A DNA stretch of 47,800 nucleotides from a bacterium (GTDB lineage Bacteria; Elusimicrobiota; Elusimicrobia; Elusimicrobiales; UBA9959). Within the stretch, counting starts at the first letter, position 1, and every line of letters begins with the position of its first letter. A model generated the notes under the pieces. That model was not told the DNA's origin. It saw only the letters and a list, made by a program, of their open reading frames with translations, and searched no databases. Both the position numbers and the translations under genes were made by a program. Positions 24,721-34,223 of this stretch are shown here, in pieces. The DNA is taken from positions 1 to 47,800 of the forward strand of contig JAJZPL010000024.1 in assembly GCA_021811185.1 (NCBI GenBank), written 5' to 3'.

Positions 24721-27108
24721 TCAGCTGCGCAGCTGGGCGCCGAAGTTCTTGGTGAGCTTGTCCAGCACGGCGGTCATGCGGGCGCCCACGTCGGCGTCGT
24801 TCAGCGTGCCCGTCATGGACGAGAAGATGAACCTGATGGTGAGGCTGCGGTGGCCCTCCGGGATGTTCTTGCCCTTGTACACGTCTATCAGCCGGGCCGA
24901 GGCCAGGTCCTGCACGCCGGAGAAAGCCCTGTCGAGCTCCGCCCATTCGTGCTTTTCCTCCAGCACTATGGAAAGGTCGCGCCAGCTCTGCGGGAAAGCC
25001 GACACGGGCTTTATCTTGGCCACCTTCTGCCAGAATTCGTACTTGCCGGAAGCGGCCACGCAGGTGAGCGGGACCTCGAAGTAGAAAATATTATTATCCT
25101 TTAAGTCGCAGGCGGCCGCTACCGACGCGGCCAATTTCCCGACATACCCCGCGGAACTGCCGCCCAGCTTTATCTCCAGGCAGAGCCCCAACTGGAAATA
25201 GGCCGGGGCCTTTTTAGGCTTTTCGAAGCGGAACCCGCTCTTGCCCGCGAACAGGCGGCAGACCATGCCCTTAAGGTGGAAGAAATCCGCCTTGCCCTGC
25301 CCGCCCTTCCAGAAACCGCCTTCGGGGAAATCGCCGTACATCAGCCCGGCGCAGTACGTTTCTTCGGCCTTGCCGGCTTCCTTCCTGGCGTAAGCCACGC
25401 CCGCCTCGAAGATCAGCACGGAATCGCGCCCGCGGTTCAGGTTGTAGCGCAGCGTCTTAAGCAGCCCCGGCAGCAGGGTCTGGCGCATGAACTGGTAGTC
25501 GGAGGACAGCGGGTTCTTAACTTCCACCGCCGCCGCGGCGTCCAGGCCGCAGGCCTTCACTTCCTTTTCCGAGACGAAATCGTAATTATAGACCTCGCTG
25601 AAGCCGAGGGCGGCCAGCGTATTCTTCATCTCCGTCGCTACCGTCCACAGCGGCGTAATGGTGGAAGGGAGCATGGGCATGCTGGACACGGACGGGATCA
25701 CGTCGTAGCCCGCGTAGCGCGCCACTTCCTCGGCCACGTCCCAAACGTTCTCGATGTCCTGCCGGTAAGACGGCACGGTGAACTTCCAGGGCTTGGCATC
25801 GTTCAGGTCGGGCTGGAAAGCCTTCAGGCAGGCGTACATCTCGGTGGGCGCTATGCCTGTGCCCAGGATGGCGTTAATGCGGCCGGCGGACACTTCGATC
25901 ACGGGCGGCTGGTACTTTACCGGGCAATTGTCGGTGAACTGCTCCACGGCGGCGCCGGGCGCGGCCTTGAGGATAAGCCCGGCCAGGCGGCGGGCCGCCT
26001 TGATGGTAAGCTCGGGGTCGGTGCCGCGCTCGAAACGGTAGGAGGATTCGCTCTTCAGCCCGGAAGCCTTGGAGGCCAGCCGCACGGTGGGCGCGTGGAA
26101 ACGCGCGGACTCTATAAGGATGGCGTCGGTGTCGTCGGAGACGGCCGTGTCAAGGCCGCCCATCACGCCGGCCAGGGCCGCGGGGGCTTTGGCGTCGGCT
26201 ATCACCAGCATGCCGGGATCCAGTTTGAGGGCTTTGTTGTCCAGCGTGGTAAAAGCTTCGCCGGCCACGGCGCGGCGCACCTTTATTTCGGGACCGGTGA
26301 GCTTCGCGATATCGAAGCAGTGCATCGGCTGACCCAGCTCGTACATCACGTAGTTGGCGCCGTCTATAAGGATATTGCCCTTGGGGTTGGAGCCGACGGC
26401 GCGCAGGCGGTCGGCCATCCAGTCCGGGGTCTTGGCGCCGCGCACGCCTTTAATGACGATGGCGGTGTAGCGCGGGCACAGTTCCGGCGCTTCAATGTTC
26501 ACCGGCACTACGGAACCGGCGGCGGAGCCTTCGAAAATTTTAGCTTCTTTCAGTTTGAGCCCGTAAAACAGGCAGAACTCGCGGGCCAGCGCGTAATGCG
26601 AAAGACAATGCCCCTGGTTAGGCAGCATCTCGACTTCTAAAAGGGAATCGGCCTTGGGAAAAAGGGTAACCGCGTCCAGGCCCACCGCGGTATTCTCCGG
26701 CAGCACCAGAATGCCCGAATCGTCGTAGCCTTCAAGCCCCAGCTCGCCGGCCGCGCAGATCATGCCTTCCGATTCCACGCCCCGGATCTTGGCTTTCTTC
26801 AGCTCGCCTTCGGCGAGCATAGCGCCCACCTTCGCAAAAAGTATCTTCTGCCCCACGGCGATGTTCTTGGCGCCGCACACCACGCGCAGCACCCCCGGCC
26901 CGTAGTTCACGTCCACCAGCGCCAGTTTGTCCGCGTTCGGATGCTTGTCTATCTTCAGGATCTGCCCGACGGATACGCCGGAGAAAGAGGCGCCGGTCTT
27001 CTTGATCCCTTCCACCTTAAGCCCCACGCGGCCAAGCTTCGCCGCCATGTCCTCGGGCGTCGGAGGATTCTCGATAAAGTCGGAAAGCCAGGAATAAAGT
27101 ATGTTCAT
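24721..27108 (-). CDS. pheT: phenylalanine--tRNA ligase beta subunit
   Basis: The 795-residue product has the full PheT architecture: N-terminal tRNA-binding OB domain (LKIDKHPNADKLALVDVNYG, about 52-71), B3/B4 editing domain (about 200-400, with KSESSYRFERGTDP near residue 350), B5, the catalytic-like core and the C-terminal anticodon-binding FDX-ACB domain (PVSAFPQSWRDLSIVL). It pairs with PheS as an alpha2-beta2 enzyme charging tRNA-Phe in the cytoplasm. It lies 170 bp after pheS; that gap holds repeat copy A. Confidence 0.97.
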   Translation of the reverse strand: MNILYSWLSDFIENPPTPEDMAAKLGRVGLKVEGIKKTGASFSGVSVGQILKIDKHPNADKLALVDVNYGPGVLRVVCGAKNIAVGQKILFAKVGAMLAEGELKKAKIRGVESEGMICAAGELGLEGYDDSGILVLPENTAVGLDAVTLFPKADSLLEVEMLPNQGHCLSHYALAREFCLFYGLKLKEAKIFEGSAAGSVVPVNIEAPELCPRYTAIVIKGVRGAKTPDWMADRLRAVGSNPKGNILIDGANYVMYELGQPMHCFDIAKLTGPEIKVRRAVAGEAFTTLDNKALKLDPGMLVIADAKAPAALAGVMGGLDTAVSDDTDAILIESARFHAPTVRLASKASGLKSESSYRFERGTDPELTIKAARRLAGLILKAAPGAAVEQFTDNCPVKYQPPVIEVSAGRINAILGTGIAPTEMYACLKAFQPDLNDAKPWKFTVPSYRQDIENVWDVAEEVARYAGYDVIPSVSSMPMLPSTITPLWTVATEMKNTLAALGFSEVYNYDFVSEKEVKACGLDAAAAVEVKNPLSSDYQFMRQTLLPGLLKTLRYNLNRGRDSVLIFEAGVAYARKEAGKAEETYCAGLMYGDFPEGGFWKGGQGKADFFHLKGMVCRLFAGKSGFRFEKPKKAPAYFQLGLCLEIKLGGSSAGYVGKLAASVAAACDLKDNNIFYFEVPLTCVAASGKYEFWQKVAKIKPVSAFPQSWRDLSIVLEEKHEWAELDRAFSGVQDLASARLIDVYKGKNIPEGHRSLTIRFIFSSMTGTLNDADVGARMTAVLDKLTKNFGAQLRS

Positions 27109-27154
27109 TTCGTCTTCTCTTCCAAATTTATTTCACGTACCGCGGTTACGACGA

Positions 27155-27263
27155 GTGGGCCGGGTTAGCAAAACCGTCGTGAGGCTTCGGCTTGCGTAAG
27201 CGCCGAAGCCGAATGTCGAGCGAGGCCACGGTGTGGCCGAGCGCGTTTTGCGTTCCGGCCCAC
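27155..27263. repeat. structured repeat, copy A (between pheS and pheT)
   Basis: This copy has an outer stem GTGGGCCGG/CCGGCCCAC (27155-27163/27255-27263), an internal bulge and GCAAAAC/GTTTTGC (27168-27174/27245-27251). Inside are hairpin P2 (GGCTTCGGC 27183-27191 / GCCGAAGCC 27202-27210) and P3 (GGCCAC 27224-27229 / GTGGCC 27233-27238). The core GTTAGCAAAACCGTCGTGAGG and the segment CGAATGTCGAGCGAG are shared with copies B and C. The fold is a three-way junction. In the pheST transcript it lies in the antisense sense of the orientation given here. The family is unrecognised. Confidence 0.85.
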
Positions 27264-27278
27264 TTGGCGGAACCGCCC

Positions 27279-28337
27279 CTACTGTACTTGCTTTAAGACG
27301 CGCAGATCGTTCTCGTAGAGCATGCGCATGTCGCTGATGCCGTACAGCAGCATGGCGAAACGCTCGATGCCCGCGCCGAAAGCGAAGCCGCTCCACTTCT
27401 CGGGATCGTACTTGGCCGACTTCAGCACGTTGGGGTGCACCAGGCCCGCGCCCATCACCTCAAGCCAGCCCGTGCCCTTGCACACCGGGCAGCGGCCCGC
27501 GGAGTTGTGGCCGCCCTTGCAGAAAACGCAGGACATATCAACTTCGGCGCCAGGTTCCACAAAAGGGAAATACGACGGGTTGAAACGCGTCTTCACTCCG
27601 GAGCCGAACAGGTCCTTCATGAAAGCGTCCACCGTCCACTTCAGGTCCGCCATGCTCACGCCCTTGTCGACGTAGAGCCCCTCTATCTGGTGGAAAGCGA
27701 AAGAATGGCTGGCGTCCACCGCCTCGGACCGGAACACGCGCCCCGTGTGGAACACGCGGATAGGCGGCTCCTGCTTCTCCATGGCGCGGATCTGCACCGG
27801 AGAGGTATGGGTGCGCAGCAGCATGAACTTGCCGGCCTGGTCCTTGGCGTCCACGTAGAAAGTATCCTGCATGTCGCGCGCGGGGTGGAACGGCGGGAAG
27901 TTCAGCGCCTCAAAATTATGGTAGTCGTCCTCGATGAGCGGCCCGTCGGACATAGTGAAGCCCAGCTTCAAAAAGCCCTCGGCCAGGCGGTTCATCGTGT
28001 GGGTGAGCGGGTGCAGGCTGCCCTTGGGATAAGGCCAGCCGGGGAGCGTCAGGTCCAAGTCGGACTTTACGACGGGTCCCGCGGCGCCGGCGGAGCCCTT
28101 CAGCTCGGCCAGCTTGGCTTCCATCTCCTGCTTGGCGGCGTTGCCGAGCGCGCCCAGCGGCTTGCGCTCCTCCAGGGGAATGTCTTTAAGGTCCCGCAGC
28201 AGCAGGGCCAGCTCGCCTTTACGCCCGAGGTAATGCAGCTCCAGGGCCTCGGGGTTCTCGGCGGGCTTCTTCTCTATAGAAACGGAAAAACTGCCCCGTA
28301 TTGCGGACAGTTTTTCCTTCCACTCCGTGGCGTTCAC
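27279..28337 (-). CDS. pheS: phenylalanine--tRNA ligase alpha subunit
   Basis: The 352-residue protein has an N-terminal coiled coil (about 1-90), then the class II catalytic core with HPLTHTMNRLAEGFLKLGF, FHPARDMQDTFYV (motif 2 region), RVFRSEAVDASHSFAFHQIE, and motif 3 GFAFGAGIERFAMLLYGI. A CxxC...CxxC knuckle (CVFCKGG and CPVCKGTGWLEV) is inserted before the EVMGAG segment; this variant is known in several bacterial lineages. It forms the catalytic half of PheRS. The stop is followed by a short GGGGCGG/CCGCC hairpin, then repeat copy A. Confidence 0.97.
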   Translation of the reverse strand: MNATEWKEKLSAIRGSFSVSIEKKPAENPEALELHYLGRKGELALLLRDLKDIPLEERKPLGALGNAAKQEMEAKLAELKGSAGAAGPVVKSDLDLTLPGWPYPKGSLHPLTHTMNRLAEGFLKLGFTMSDGPLIEDDYHNFEALNFPPFHPARDMQDTFYVDAKDQAGKFMLLRTHTSPVQIRAMEKQEPPIRVFHTGRVFRSEAVDASHSFAFHQIEGLYVDKGVSMADLKWTVDAFMKDLFGSGVKTRFNPSYFPFVEPGAEVDMSCVFCKGGHNSAGRCPVCKGTGWLEVMGAGLVHPNVLKSAKYDPEKWSGFAFGAGIERFAMLLYGISDMRMLYENDLRVLKQVQ

Positions 28338-28346
28338 GGCGTGGCC

Positions 28347-28730
28347 TTATTTCTCGGTACCGACAACTTTCTTCACGTTGCCGATAGCTTTCCTGGCGAT
28401 CTCGGCCAGCTGCTTGAAAGACTGAGGGTCGCGGATGGCGATCTCGGACAGCATCTTGCGGTTAAGCATGATGTTGGCCTTGTGGATGCCGTCCATGAAC
28501 CGGCTGTAGGACATGCCTTCCTCGCGGGCGGCGGCGTTCAGGCGGATGATCCAGAGCTGGCGGATATCGCCCTTCTTGTCGCGGCGGTGGATATATGCGG
28601 TGGTCAGCGACTTGTTGACCTGCTGTATAGCCTGGCGGAGGCGGTTGCCCTTGTTGCCGTAATAGCCCTTGGCGAGCTTAAAAATCTTCTTCTTTCTCTT
28701 GGTTCTGGCTACGCTGTATGTTATTCTCAT
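28347..28730 (-). CDS. rplT: 50S ribosomal protein L20
   Basis: The 127-residue protein has the L20 signature: basic N-terminal tail (RTKRKKKIFKLAKGYYGNK), RRDKKGDIRQLWIIRLNAA and NIMLNRKMLSEIAI. L20 is a primary 23S rRNA binder required early in large-subunit assembly. It is about eight residues longer than usual at the C-terminus. It sits in the conserved infC-rpmI-rplT order with pheS starting 9 bp after its stop. In other bacteria L20 represses its own operon through the leader. Confidence 0.97.
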   Translation of the reverse strand: MRITYSVARTKRKKKIFKLAKGYYGNKGNRLRQAIQQVNKSLTTAYIHRRDKKGDIRQLWIIRLNAAAREEGMSYSRFMDGIHKANIMLNRKMLSEIAIRDPQSFKQLAEIARKAIGNVKKVVGTEK

Positions 28731-28755
28731 GATTTTGTCCTGTTAGTCTTCTTTC

Positions 28756-28959
28756 TTATTCGTAGGGCAGGTAGTTCTTAAGCACGCGGCCCTCGGAGGA
28801 ATTCTTTTCCTCAACCTTGGCGGTGCGCAGGGTCCTGCCGCGCTTGGCGGACATGCCGGTGAGCAGGTGGCGCAGGCCGGACTTCCGGTGCAGCCACTTG
28901 CCGGTAGAGGTCTTTCTAAATCTTTTCTTGGCGCCGCTGTGCGATTTCATTTTAGGCAT
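28756..28959 (-). CDS. rpmI: 50S ribosomal protein L35
   Basis: The 67 residues begin MPKMKSHSGAKKRFRKTSTGKW, matching L35 (MPKMKTHSGAKKRF), and include RHLLTGMSAKRGRTLR. It is a small basic large-subunit protein. It lies between infC and rplT in the conserved order; a possible promoter (TATAAT at 29006) lies in the gap upstream. Confidence 0.95.
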   Translation of the reverse strand: MPKMKSHSGAKKRFRKTSTGKWLHRKSGLRHLLTGMSAKRGRTLRTAKVEEKNSSEGRVLKNYLPYE

Positions 28960-29005
28960 ATTGTTTTTTCCGATATTGTAAATTGCCGCTGATTGTTATC
29001 CTATT

Positions 29006-29011
29006 ATTATA
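29006..29011 (-). promoter_or_regulatory. possible internal promoter for rpmI-rplT-pheST
   Basis: TATAAT on the minus strand with TTTCAA (29029-29034) 17 bp upstream, in an AT-rich gap after infC. The -35 matches only three of six consensus bases. It could allow extra L35/L20 expression relative to IF3. Confidence 0.45.
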
Positions 29012-29058
29012 TATTTTTCCTGCCCTCGTTGAAAAGGCAAAAACTTAAAACGCCGCTT

Positions 29059-29757
29059 TTACACTCCGGGAGCCTGCTCCGGCTTGGGGGCGGGCGGGAT
29101 GACCGGCGAGACTACGGGCGCTACGCCGGGAGCGGCGGGCGCGGCGGGTTTTACCGCCGGGGCGGCCTGAACAGCGGGCTTGGCCGCGGCCGGGGCGGCG
29201 GGCTTGGCCGCCGCGGGTTTGGGCGCGCCGGCGGGCTTGCCGTGCTGCATGGGGGCCAGCATGATGCTCATGCGGTTGCCCATCATCTGCGGGCGGCCTT
29301 CGGGCGCGCCTACGGTGGAAAGGTGGTCGCGCACGGCGTTAAGGATCTCTTCGCCGAGGTTCCTGTGCTGGTTCTCGCGGCCGCGGAAGACCACGGTGAC
29401 GCGCACCTTGTTGTGCTCTTTCAGGAAGCCCTCGATGTGCTTGATCTTGGTCTGCAGGTCGTGGCTGGCGATGCGCGGGTTAAGGCGGATCTCTTTGAGC
29501 ACGCCGGCTTTCTGCTTCTTGCGGTTCTCGCGGTCCTCTTTGTCTTTCTCGTAGAGGAACTTGGAAAAATCCATTACTTTGCAGACGGGCGGATTGGCGG
29601 CCGGCGAAATTTCCACCAGGTCAAGCCCGGAACCCTTGGCCATATTCACCGCTTCGATGAGCGGCTTTATGCCAAGCATGGTCCCGTGCATGTCTATAAG
29701 ACGCACCTGCGGGGACGTGATATTGCGGTTAACGCGAACTCTCTTGTCGTTGTACAA
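29059..29757 (-). CDS. infC: translation initiation factor IF-3, with Ala/Pro-rich tail
   Basis: The 232-residue product has both IF3 domains: N-terminal (about 8-75, with LDLVEISPAANPPVCKVMDF) and C-terminal (85-170, KEIRLNPRIASHDLQTKIKH and NRMSIMLAP), joined by a lysine-rich linker. IF3 prevents subunit joining and checks the start codon. The start is UUG, 6 nt after AGGAGG; rare starts in infC are used in other bacteria for self-repression. From about residue 172 the C-terminus is a 60-residue Ala/Pro/Lys tail of low complexity, which is not usual for IF3 (typical length 170-180). Confidence 0.96.
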   Translation of the reverse strand: MYNDKRVRVNRNITSPQVRLIDMHGTMLGIKPLIEAVNMAKGSGLDLVEISPAANPPVCKVMDFSKFLYEKDKEDRENRKKQKAGVLKEIRLNPRIASHDLQTKIKHIEGFLKEHNKVRVTVVFRGRENQHRNLGEEILNAVRDHLSTVGAPEGRPQMMGNRMSIMLAPMQHGKPAGAPKPAAAKPAAPAAAKPAVQAAPAVKPAAPAAPGVAPVVSPVIPPAPKPEQAPGV

Positions 29758-29763
29758 ACTCTG

Positions 29764-29820
29764 CCTCCTGCAGCATCGGGGAAAAAGGCCCCTGGCCGGG
29801 TTAATAACCTGGCCATGCTG
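29764..29820 (-). promoter_or_regulatory. folded infC leader ending at the ribosome site
   Basis: On the minus strand, CAGCAT (29820-29815) pairs with ATGCTG (29776-29771). Inside lie two hairpins: GGCC-n-GGTT-n-AACC-n-GGCC (29814-29794) and GGGG/CCCC (29792-29778). The outer stem ends one base before the AGGAGG site (29769-29764). A leader element with this position suggests autoregulation by IF3 or L20, which is inference. Confidence 0.5.
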
Positions 29821-29829
29821 TGAACATAT

Positions 29830-29835
29830 ATTCTA
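29830..29835 (-). promoter_or_regulatory. possible -10 box (TAGAAT) of the infC operon
   Basis: TAGAAT on the minus strand, 10 bp upstream of the folded leader. It repeats the hexamer seen before other genes. No clear -35. Confidence 0.3.
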
Positions 29836-29883
29836 CCTTTTTTAGCGGCTTTTAACTATGAAAAAACGGCTTTCCCGGCTAAA

Positions 29884-30642
29884 TTACCTATGGGCGAGGT
29901 AATAAAGCATGTAGGTCAGCAGTCCGAAGTACTCGTTAAAGGCCCGTGAAAGGTCCGAGGAGTCCCCGGGGAGGTAGTCGCGCAGGTGCCGCCGCCTGGA
30001 GGCGGGCGCCAGGTGACCGTAAGGGTAAGCCTGCACCGACTCGAACCCGGCCTTTTTGAAAAGGTAGACGGAGCGGGGCATATGGTACCCCGAGGTTACC
30101 AGGATTATCCGCTTATAGCCCTTTTCCTTGCAGATCTTAAGCGTGTAGGCCGCGTTCTCGAAGGTGTCCCGGGAGGCTTCCTCGGTTATGATCTTGTCCG
30201 TTGGCACTCCGAGCTCGGCCAGGTACCGCGCCGCGGCCACGGATTCCGGCGTTTCCGAGAACGGCGCCCCGCCGGAAATTATTACGGGCAGGCCGGTCTT
30301 CTTTTGCAGCCTCGCCACCGCGTAAGTGCGCTGCATGGTGGCCGGATAAAGCGCCGCCGCCGCCGTGATCTCGATAGGCACGTCCCCCGCCCCGCCGCAA
30401 AGCAGCACTATAACGTCCCCCTCCGGTTTGGCCGGCACGCTATAAGCCTGCTCCAGCGGCCGCAACACCGCCTTGGACACAACCCTGGTAGCCCCCGCCC
30501 AGCAAACCAGCGCCAAAGCGGCACACATCACCGCCCCGCTCCGCGACCTCTTCCTTAAATATAAAGCGATCAACACCAGCGCAGTCACCACCGTCCCCGG
30601 CGGCAAAATAAAAGCCTCAAGAATTTTCTTAATGATGAACAT
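29884..30642 (-). CDS. ElyC/YdcF-type DUF218 membrane protein
   Basis: The frame is open to 30756, but that extension reads through repeat copy B. The ATG at 30642 starts MFIIKKILEAFILPPG, typical of ElyC-like proteins (252 residues). Two N-terminal hydrophobic segments are followed by a DUF218 domain: VIVLLCGGAG, PVIISGGAPFSE, TEEASRDTFENA and ILVTSGYHMPRSVYLF. These proteins are linked to envelope biogenesis and undecaprenyl-phosphate use in Escherichia coli. The ribosome site is weak. The upstream gap holds copy B. Confidence 0.87.
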   Translation of the reverse strand: MFIIKKILEAFILPPGTVVTALVLIALYLRKRSRSGAVMCAALALVCWAGATRVVSKAVLRPLEQAYSVPAKPEGDVIVLLCGGAGDVPIEITAAAALYPATMQRTYAVARLQKKTGLPVIISGGAPFSETPESVAAARYLAELGVPTDKIITEEASRDTFENAAYTLKICKEKGYKRIILVTSGYHMPRSVYLFKKAGFESVQAYPYGHLAPASRRRHLRDYLPGDSSDLSRAFNEYFGLLTYMLYYLAHR

Positions 30643-30675
30643 AAAATTTATAACTGCATTACTTTGGGTTCTTGG

Positions 30676-30828
30676 CCGCGAGAAGCCCAGTCGGGCGCGG
30701 CCACGGGGACCGGATCGCAAAACGCGCTCGGGGCACACCGTGCCCTCGCTCGACATTCGGCCCTCGCGCTATGCAAGCTCGGGCCTCACGACGGTTTTGC
30801 TAACCCGGTCCCCGCGTCCACGCCCTCC
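30676..30828. repeat. structured repeat, copy B (inverted relative to A and C)
   Basis: This 153-bp copy lies in the opposite orientation to A and C. It shares with C the flanks GGAGGGCG-GGACGCGGGGACCGG at one end and GTGGCCGCGCCCGACT, then CTTCTCGCGG, at the other. P3 is GGGCAC/GTGCCC, as in copy C. P2 is rebuilt (GGCCC/GGGCC) with both sides changed. It sits just upstream of the ElyC-like gene start. Confidence 0.85.
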
Positions 30829-30882
30829 GTATTAGCAAATGTTTGTTACGTTCTAAACCTGGAACAAAAAACTATCCTCGCT

Positions 30883-31473
30883 TTAATTCCCTGTCTGCGG
30901 TTGCACTGTTACATTTAATTTTTCATCTACACTAATAGTCGCAGATTGCCATTGCCCAGATGTTATGTAACCGAAAAGCACACCTGATTCTGTTTTAGTA
31001 CCGATTGACACGGTATATTTAACACTCCCCTCACCTTTAATATGAATTTTATCGGTTTTCTCTTTTTTAGGCGAAACCATCCCGATATCATGGCGGCTGA
31101 CTGGCCCCTGCAATGAGATATCGCTGATAGCACTGGAAGAATTGTTTTGGATTTTAACAGTTGAAACGCTCATCAAGTCTGAGCCTGCAGACACAAGTAT
31201 TAACGCCACAGGAAAATTTGCCAATAACAAAGCATATGTGCGAATAATTTTTTTCCCGTTTTCCTTAAAGATACTCTTTTTATACAAGTACCCCGCATAA
31301 ATTGTTAGACAAAGTAATCCAACAGCAACTGATATAGTCCCCACTTCAAGATTAAGTATTCCAGCTGAAACCAGCCATGCCGTTTGAAAGAAATAGAAAA
31401 GAATAAATATCGCAATTCCTGCCGCCAACGGCAGCGCCCCGCATAAAATAGCAATGGTCCACAATATTTTCAT
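30883..31473 (-). CDS. AT-rich orphan membrane protein
   Basis: The 196-residue protein has three hydrophobic segments (about 4-28, 32-62 and 80-100) followed by a ~95-residue soluble domain rich in Ser, Ile and Lys with beta character (STVKIQNNSSSAISDISLQG, SVKYTVSIGTKTES). The topology suggests the domain is outside the membrane. No family is recognised. The base composition is about 40% GC by eye against ~62% around it, and codon use favours A/T-ending codons, so recent acquisition is likely. It is bracketed by repeat copies B and C. The ribosome site (GGAA) is weak. Confidence 0.65.
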   Translation of the reverse strand: MKILWTIAILCGALPLAAGIAIFILFYFFQTAWLVSAGILNLEVGTISVAVGLLCLTIYAGYLYKKSIFKENGKKIIRTYALLLANFPVALILVSAGSDLMSVSTVKIQNNSSSAISDISLQGPVSRHDIGMVSPKKEKTDKIHIKGEGSVKYTVSIGTKTESGVLFGYITSGQWQSATISVDEKLNVTVQPQTGN

Positions 31474-31543
31474 ATAGAAGTTCCGGCGTAATTAAGCACA
31501 TTTAGTTTTACCAAATGCCTATACCGTTAGCAATAGAAGGGTT

Positions 31544-31697
31544 GGAGGGCGCGGACGCGGGGACCGGATTAGCAAAACCGTCGTGAGGCTCCGGCTTGCG
31601 CAAGCGCCGGAGCCGAATGTCGAGCGAGGGCACGGTGTGCCCCGAGCGCGTTTTGCGTTCCGGTCACCGTGGCCGCGCCCGACTTCACTTCTCGCGG
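31544..31697. repeat. structured repeat, copy C
   Basis: The orientation is the same as copy A. The outer stem is changed but kept (GGGCGCGG/CCGCGCCC and GGACCGG/CCGGTC). GCAAAAC pairs with GTTTTGC as in A. P2 is GGCTCCGGC/GCCGGAGCC, one base pair swapped relative to A (T-A to C-G). P3 is GGGCAC/GTGCCC (C-G to G-C relative to A). It lies between the AT-rich gene and the hppA terminator. Confidence 0.85.
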
Positions 31698-31710
31698 TTC
31701 TTCTTCCTCC

Positions 31711-31752
31711 ATAAATAAAACTCCCCGCCGGTTGGCGGGGAGTTTCATTTTT
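31711..31752. terminator. rho-independent terminator of hppA
   Basis: A 12-bp stem AAACTCCCCGCC/GGCGGGGAGTTT (31718-31729/31734-31745) with loop GGTT lies 19 bp after the hppA stop. T-rich stretches lie on both sides (TTTATTTAT on the minus strand, CATTTTTT on the plus), so it may act in both directions. Confidence 0.9.
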
Positions 31753-31763
31753 TCGAAACGAAC

Positions 31764-34223
<2,460 letters not shown>

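Follow-up and report, generated by a model that had tools for sequence, protein, structure and literature searches.

The structured repeat found in three copies in the window, the whole 47,800-nucleotide stretch of an Elusimicrobiales contig that was analysed, belongs to a repeat family of one Elusimicrobia family that we regard, with a probability of about 60%, as a non-autonomous foldback DNA repeat working in the manner of a branched REP dimer of unusual size (REPIN-like). The first-pass annotation of the window had left the choice between a non-coding RNA, a palindromic mobile repeat, and a DNA cruciform element; among these options the palindromic mobile repeat fits best and the RNA gene is disfavored by orientation data, and an element rather than an RNA gene is the best reading overall.

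Copy A (27142..27276, plus strand, with its core starting at 27164) is a single element lying between pheT (24721-27108, minus strand) and pheS (27279-28337, minus strand), both named by Pfam, and is antisense to both genes; its arms are site-specific and about 22 nt long. Copy B (30676..30828, minus strand) and copy C (31544..31697, plus strand) are the left and right halves of a head-to-head pair, with full-type outer ends (CCGCGAGAAG... and ...CTTCTCGCGG, respectively), and the insert between them carries an ORF of 196 aa (30883..31473, minus strand) that looks like a membrane protein by eye. The whole cassette, composed of copy B, the insert, and copy C, occupies 30676..31697 and is flanked by a DUF218 gene (29884-30642), which we take to be ydcF-like, and an H+-pyrophosphatase gene (31764-34223). 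The positions and orientations originally assigned to the three copies were confirmed, and the mean column identity of their alignment is 80%. RNA folds of the three copies lie far below those of dinucleotide shuffles (z of -7.39 for A, -4.85 for B, and -5.23 for C, with 0/200 shuffles as low in each case), and the paired changes that had been read from the sequence, T-A to C-G in hairpin P2 (A versus C), C-G to G-C in hairpin P3 (A versus B/C), and changes on both sides of the outer stem, are all present. As DNA, both strands also fold far better than shuffles (z of -5.78/-4.95 for A and -6.69/-4.70 for C), so that the choice of a preferred strand rests on mismatch counts. Rfam agrees with the annotation in recognizing no family over the element: the whole window yielded tRNA only, five element loci gave no match at E 0.1, and positions 27000-31800 gave two sub-threshold matches only, at 31701-31790, outside the copies.

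The three copies are real, but three is too low a number. A 21-nt core word has 28 matches at three or fewer mismatches in the 3.09 Mb genome that is the source of the window (G000), whereas the reversed control had 0. Those 28 copies represent one subfamily and supplied the covariance model used for the search of the genome and its relatives that the first-pass annotation had proposed; it gave 91 matches in the window's own genome, of which 66 were accepted as copies, the remainder being 3 fragments close to contig ends and 22 matches that read an accepted copy on the opposite strand. In this assembly, the ends of contigs C8, C31, C39, C61, and C75 have element copies or fragments at or near them, and the repeats probably break assemblies, leaving copies under-counted. 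The accepted copies include other core sequences, with a layout that is alike by eye. The fold common to them is branched and about 130-200 nt long, consisting of an outer stem whose long arms measure about 20-23 bp and are interrupted by a mismatch midway, an inner stem (GCAAAAC/GTTTTGC, or GGTTCGGCGGGCC-type in a subfamily), and the two hairpins P2 and P3, which have tandem G.A mismatches at their bases and, in P3, a GGT loop. Extra nested hairpins are present in some copies, for example GTGGAGCGnAGCGACAC, a word with 14 genome matches at one or fewer mismatches.

The repeat was found in 32/32 same-genus genomes, where scoring was limited to no more than 51 candidates in each. With stricter filters, a broader set of 294 phylum genomes contained 36 positives, namely 23/23 of the genus, 12/24 from other genera of the taxonomic family, and a single genome of another family, G290. 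One copy in G290 (L370:1501-1645) is structurally similar and lies in frame within a CobB/CobQ-type gene, in a linker that holds a different palindrome in G304. In the gap before the pyrophosphatase gene, G012 (L228) and G031 (L236) have structured elements of another kind, whose GGAG...CGACTTCGC ends are similar and whose cores are unrelated, which suggests a wider superfamily.

Paired changes are not confined to the three window copies. Among the 28 copies from the window's genome, both sides change in 23 of 44 pairs, and 97.6% of cells pair, compared with 85.9% in shuffles (0/500 as high), while slid controls did not exceed 47.2%. Both-sided changes recur in 18 of the 38 predicted pairs when the 11 orthologs from the pheS-pheT gap are compared, and in 41 of 44 pairs among 32 copies from outside the genus (30 from the family and 2 from G290), where 93.3% of cells are paired versus 67.1% in shuffles in an alignment that was fitted to the model. 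The compensatory changes on which the first-pass annotation relied are thus true, but its conclusion that the fold is kept does not follow from covariation alone, because template switching can produce both paired changes and inversions. Template switching can create paired stem changes without selection (PMC8794818), and between the arms of inverted repeats in yeast it homogenizes the arms and inverts the spacers (PMC8604942). We weighed a reading in which the fold is functionless: template switching during replication would yield the paired changes as a side effect wherever inverted repeats lie, and the elements themselves would be neutral debris. Its appeal lies in this literature and in the excess of double over single-sided changes (126 vs 18 cells), but features that template switching should wipe out recur. 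Arm position 13 is a G.A mismatch in 55 of 97 copies, many of them sharing arms by descent, and a Watson-Crick pair in 31, and 31 different 6-nt outer arms occur among all 99 copies, two of which were left out of the arm mismatch counts for poor pairing beside the core. By eye, nearly all of the 28 copies retain the GA/GA sites that adjoin P2 and P3, and in G018 a mid-stem internal loop recurs with a different sequence.

The mismatches also differ between strands: in the arms of the 97 copies, G.T exceeds A.C (71 vs 21) and G.A exceeds T.C (41 vs 13), so that the fold of the plus strand (the sense of copy A in the window) seems favored. Since 37 of the 71 G.T cells fall at one position and the copies are related, this constitutes moderate evidence, and it suggests that the plus-strand fold is the one that matters. 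A bias toward one strand, like the strong covariation, would also be expected if selection maintained an RNA fold, be it that of a non-coding RNA gene or of an mRNA element acting in cis on stability, processing, or termination. GNRA-like P2 loops, seen by eye in part of the copies, and the location of copy A between two phe synthetase genes are in keeping with such an RNA, which we nevertheless find quite improbable given the lack of an Rfam match and how the copies lie relative to their genes. Rough ORF calls place 61 copies between two neighbors, 38 of them in tandem, 15 in convergent, and 8 in divergent contexts, and the tandem copies reveal no strand preference, with 19 oriented with the genes and 19 against them, while copy A itself is antisense to its neighbors. 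Copies within operons, such as copy A, can be transcribed, and an RNA role at some sites is thus possible.

The occupancy of individual sites likewise favors a DNA element over an RNA. The pheS-pheT gap, surveyed in 30 of the 32 genus genomes (without G006 and G017), contains an element in 13, is reduced to -1 to 4 bp in 12, and holds other sequence of 22-90 bp in 5. Twelve of the occupied sites are oriented like copy A and that of G029 is opposite, with unrelated arms, and is possibly a separate insertion. At ten further sites, compared in up to four relatives each, at least one relative is without the element in 6/10. Opposite orientations, together with different arms, were also seen in G005 at C15:112151 and C79:40739, where separate insertion is again possible. 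No consistent target site duplication was apparent by eye at the 6 empty-site comparisons. Two potential sources of the arms were considered and rejected. Insertion into pre-existing hairpins is contradicted by the element-free gaps, most of which hold neither arm nor hairpin by eye; some do contain other short sequence, in part hairpin-like (G014 and G025 at C78:34351, G025 at C55:9892, and G016 and G010 at pheS-pheT), where this route may still apply. Inverted duplication of the target is contradicted at C15:112151, where neither arm is present in the empty site of G014.

When elements lie close together, their arrangement follows a rule. Neighbors less than 1.3 kb apart are head-to-head in 16/16 cases in the window's own genome, 9/9 in G014, and 14/14 in G018 (39/39 together, the G014 and G018 counts being drawn from 150 of 167 matches). 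In ten further genomes, judged by eye, 7 of 10 close neighbors are head-to-head and 3 are in the same direction. All three exceptions belong to one tandem array, G233:C66:6676-9379, in which four same-direction copies are spaced about 850 bp apart. The dimers of G014 and G018 are exclusively compact, with gaps of -19 to 80 bp; by eye, many spacers of the compact G018 dimers (L331-L344) have a near-constant length and several contain a TTAACGGAAAACG-like word. Of the 16 pairs in the window's own genome, 5 are compact and 11 enclose 424-1081 bp.

The enclosed inserts have a GC content of 0.39-0.48, compared with 0.61 for the window, and usually contain one small ORF (two in C8:128624), with the longest ORF per insert ranging from 61 to 302 aa. 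Copies B and C form one of these 11 gene-enclosing cassettes, with an insert GC of 0.39, and their cargo ORF had no Pfam match and no relative in a search of a genome contig collection. The domain search took a single protein per cassette and covered 10 of the 11 long cassettes, C15:123675 (longest ORF 61 aa) being left aside. The cargo of C8:110251 is an Mrr_cat endonuclease (Pfam, E 8.7e-25), those of C8:128624 and C66:1460 gave nucleotidyltransferase and zinc-ribbon matches, respectively, below the cut-off, and the remaining 7 of the 10 proteins gave no Pfam family. Contents also vary at a single location, the gap between the DUF218 and pyrophosphatase genes, for which both flanking genes lay within the compared sequence at 9 of 20 loci. 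This gap is without an element in G018 (97 bp) and G005 (125 bp), encloses an ORF6N gene in G026 (E 3.1e-31) and a very similar ORF, by eye, in G027, and has one small ORF common to G014 and G016. The small cysteine/histidine-rich cargo ORF of G014 is HNH-like by eye, with no family match, and the cargo protein of G013 likewise matched no family. Such observations raise the speculative idea, to which we assign a low likelihood, that head-to-head fold pairs constitute a gene-capture system without a linked integrase, in which the arms mark the site, the core overwrites, flips, and spreads like a small gene drive, and enclosed genes are swapped as cassettes at hotspots such as the DUF218-pyrophosphatase gap.

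Within each element, the outer arms follow the site and the core follows the genome. Among 27 orthologous elements from 6 sites and 10 genomes (a pattern-based collection without G003 at C77:13168 and without G015, G001, and G019 at pheS-pheT), core identity is 0.807 between different sites of the same genome, 0.733 at the same site, and 0.738 when neither is shared, while the corresponding arm identities are 0.634, 0.730, and 0.646; 0/2000 label shuffles reach either contrast. Individual elements illustrate this dissociation: at C27:87883 the arms of G000 and G014 are each 0.955 identical and the cores 0.708, and in G014 only three of five cores are alike at 0.95-0.97 with arms at 0.68-0.73, the other two cores being at 0.64-0.80. 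In the distant genome G290, the copies at L361:838-984 and L370:1501-1645 have a common core and differing arms (about 28-32 bp), by eye the same arm/core dissociation. Sharing of cores within a genome is most simply explained by recombination or by repeated re-insertion, and may reflect recent bursts rather than conversion.

One site provides a clear inversion. At C77:13168 the arms look homologous in five genomes and the core is inverted in G005, and by eye it is inverted as a mosaic in G003, an outcome at odds with a conserved RNA and anticipated by template switching. At pheS-pheT in G019 (L185), the right arm reproduces the reverse complement of the left arm exactly and then runs into the tail of a different element version, which could be a template-switch event or, the match being at a contig start, an assembly error. 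Template switching can account for the paired arm changes and for core inversion, but not for the recurrent mismatches, and we judge a wholly functionless fold to be rather unlikely.

How the elements move was approached through the Y1 transposases. A true REP/REPIN family whose mobilization depends on a RAYT-type Y1 transposase at another genomic location would share with these elements the head-to-head dimers, the intergenic placing, and a candidate 5' tag, GGAG in full-type copies, resembling tagged REPs (PMC3733652), and Y1 genes are present in 27 of the 32 genus genomes, with 86 matches. The covariance model nonetheless detects the element at none of the 27 Y1 loci scanned out of these 86, the five genus genomes without a Y1 match have 26-46 element matches, and the elements, at about 130-200 nt and branched, exceed the 20-40 bp described for REPs (PMC3733652). 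RAYT mobilization was rejected on the first two of these grounds, and membership in a RAYT-driven family is, in our estimation, improbable. In an inverted-repeat scan of 8 Y1 loci, 4 (L153, L156, L129, L140) were accompanied by palindromes of a different type, with GGGGACAGGCTAC arms, and this separate repeat is the better candidate for a RAYT link. The search for a mobilizing enzyme, which covered the Y1 family, identified none, and no copy was seen in the act of moving. A phage carrier was also rejected, the sole exact-pattern IMG/VR match reading as coding sequence by eye and not being matched by the covariance model, and a 161-base query from copy C gave no blastn match in plasmids or phages.

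Under the preferred reading of a foldback DNA repeat, a single strand would fold into an outer stem, an inner stem, and two hairpins, and the element sits between genes singly or as a head-to-head dimer, some dimers enclosing an accessory gene. Once inserted, it would keep its arms, which undergo paired changes at their site, and its core would be replaced by sequence from copies elsewhere in the genome and sometimes inverted. The folded form may be single-stranded DNA exposed at replication, with template switching keeping the arms paired and flipping the core, recombination between copies homogenizing the cores, and an unlinked enzyme moving the unit. Within one repeat the family separates site-inherited arms from a genome-following core, offering a natural, testable case of how much RNA-like covariation arises from template switching versus selection, a question raised for rRNA hairpins (PMC8794818). 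If the pairs do move accessory genes, they would allow uncultured Elusimicrobia to exchange genes. No description of such a repeat or exchange route was found among the matches listed in open-licence PMC literature on Elusimicrobia/Elusimicrobiota, nested palindromes, and cassettes.

Several known systems share part of this organization. Like MITEs, the elements described here are short, non-autonomous, and intergenic with inverted repeats, but their ends are complex folds rather than simple terminal repeats, and neither a parent transposon (in a search for Y1 only) nor a clear target duplication was found. Rickettsia palindromic elements are brought to mind by the G290 copy lying in frame within a CobB/CobQ-type gene, whereas copies in the window's own genome are mostly intergenic. 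Integron gene cassettes resemble this family in having folded sites (attC) beside small accessory genes, but here each gene has two inverted sites, the units are dispersed, and no attC boxes were recognized by eye. The closest comparison is with REPs, which fall into GTAG and CGTC superfamilies of 20-40 bp palindromes, the CGTC superfamily being without a linked transposase (Di Nocera, 2013, PMC3733652). Like REP dimers and REPINs, the elements are palindromic, intergenic, and numerous, pair unlike halves head-to-head with short spacers, and revealed no linked transposase, and the unpaired 5' tetranucleotide of REPs may have a counterpart in the GGAG at the ends of full-type copies, which by eye can pair at the base with CGAC through G.A pairs. 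Unlike REPs, they are several times longer and branched, with nested extra hairpins; their arms are specific to the site and their cores to the genome, the core can be inverted, and dimers can enclose a gene. With a size outside 20-40 bp, no link to a RAYT gene at the 27 Y1 loci tested, and frequent inverted dimers, the family is a dispersed palindromic repeat set apart from REP by its size and transposase relationship, with an arrangement that is REP-dimer-like.
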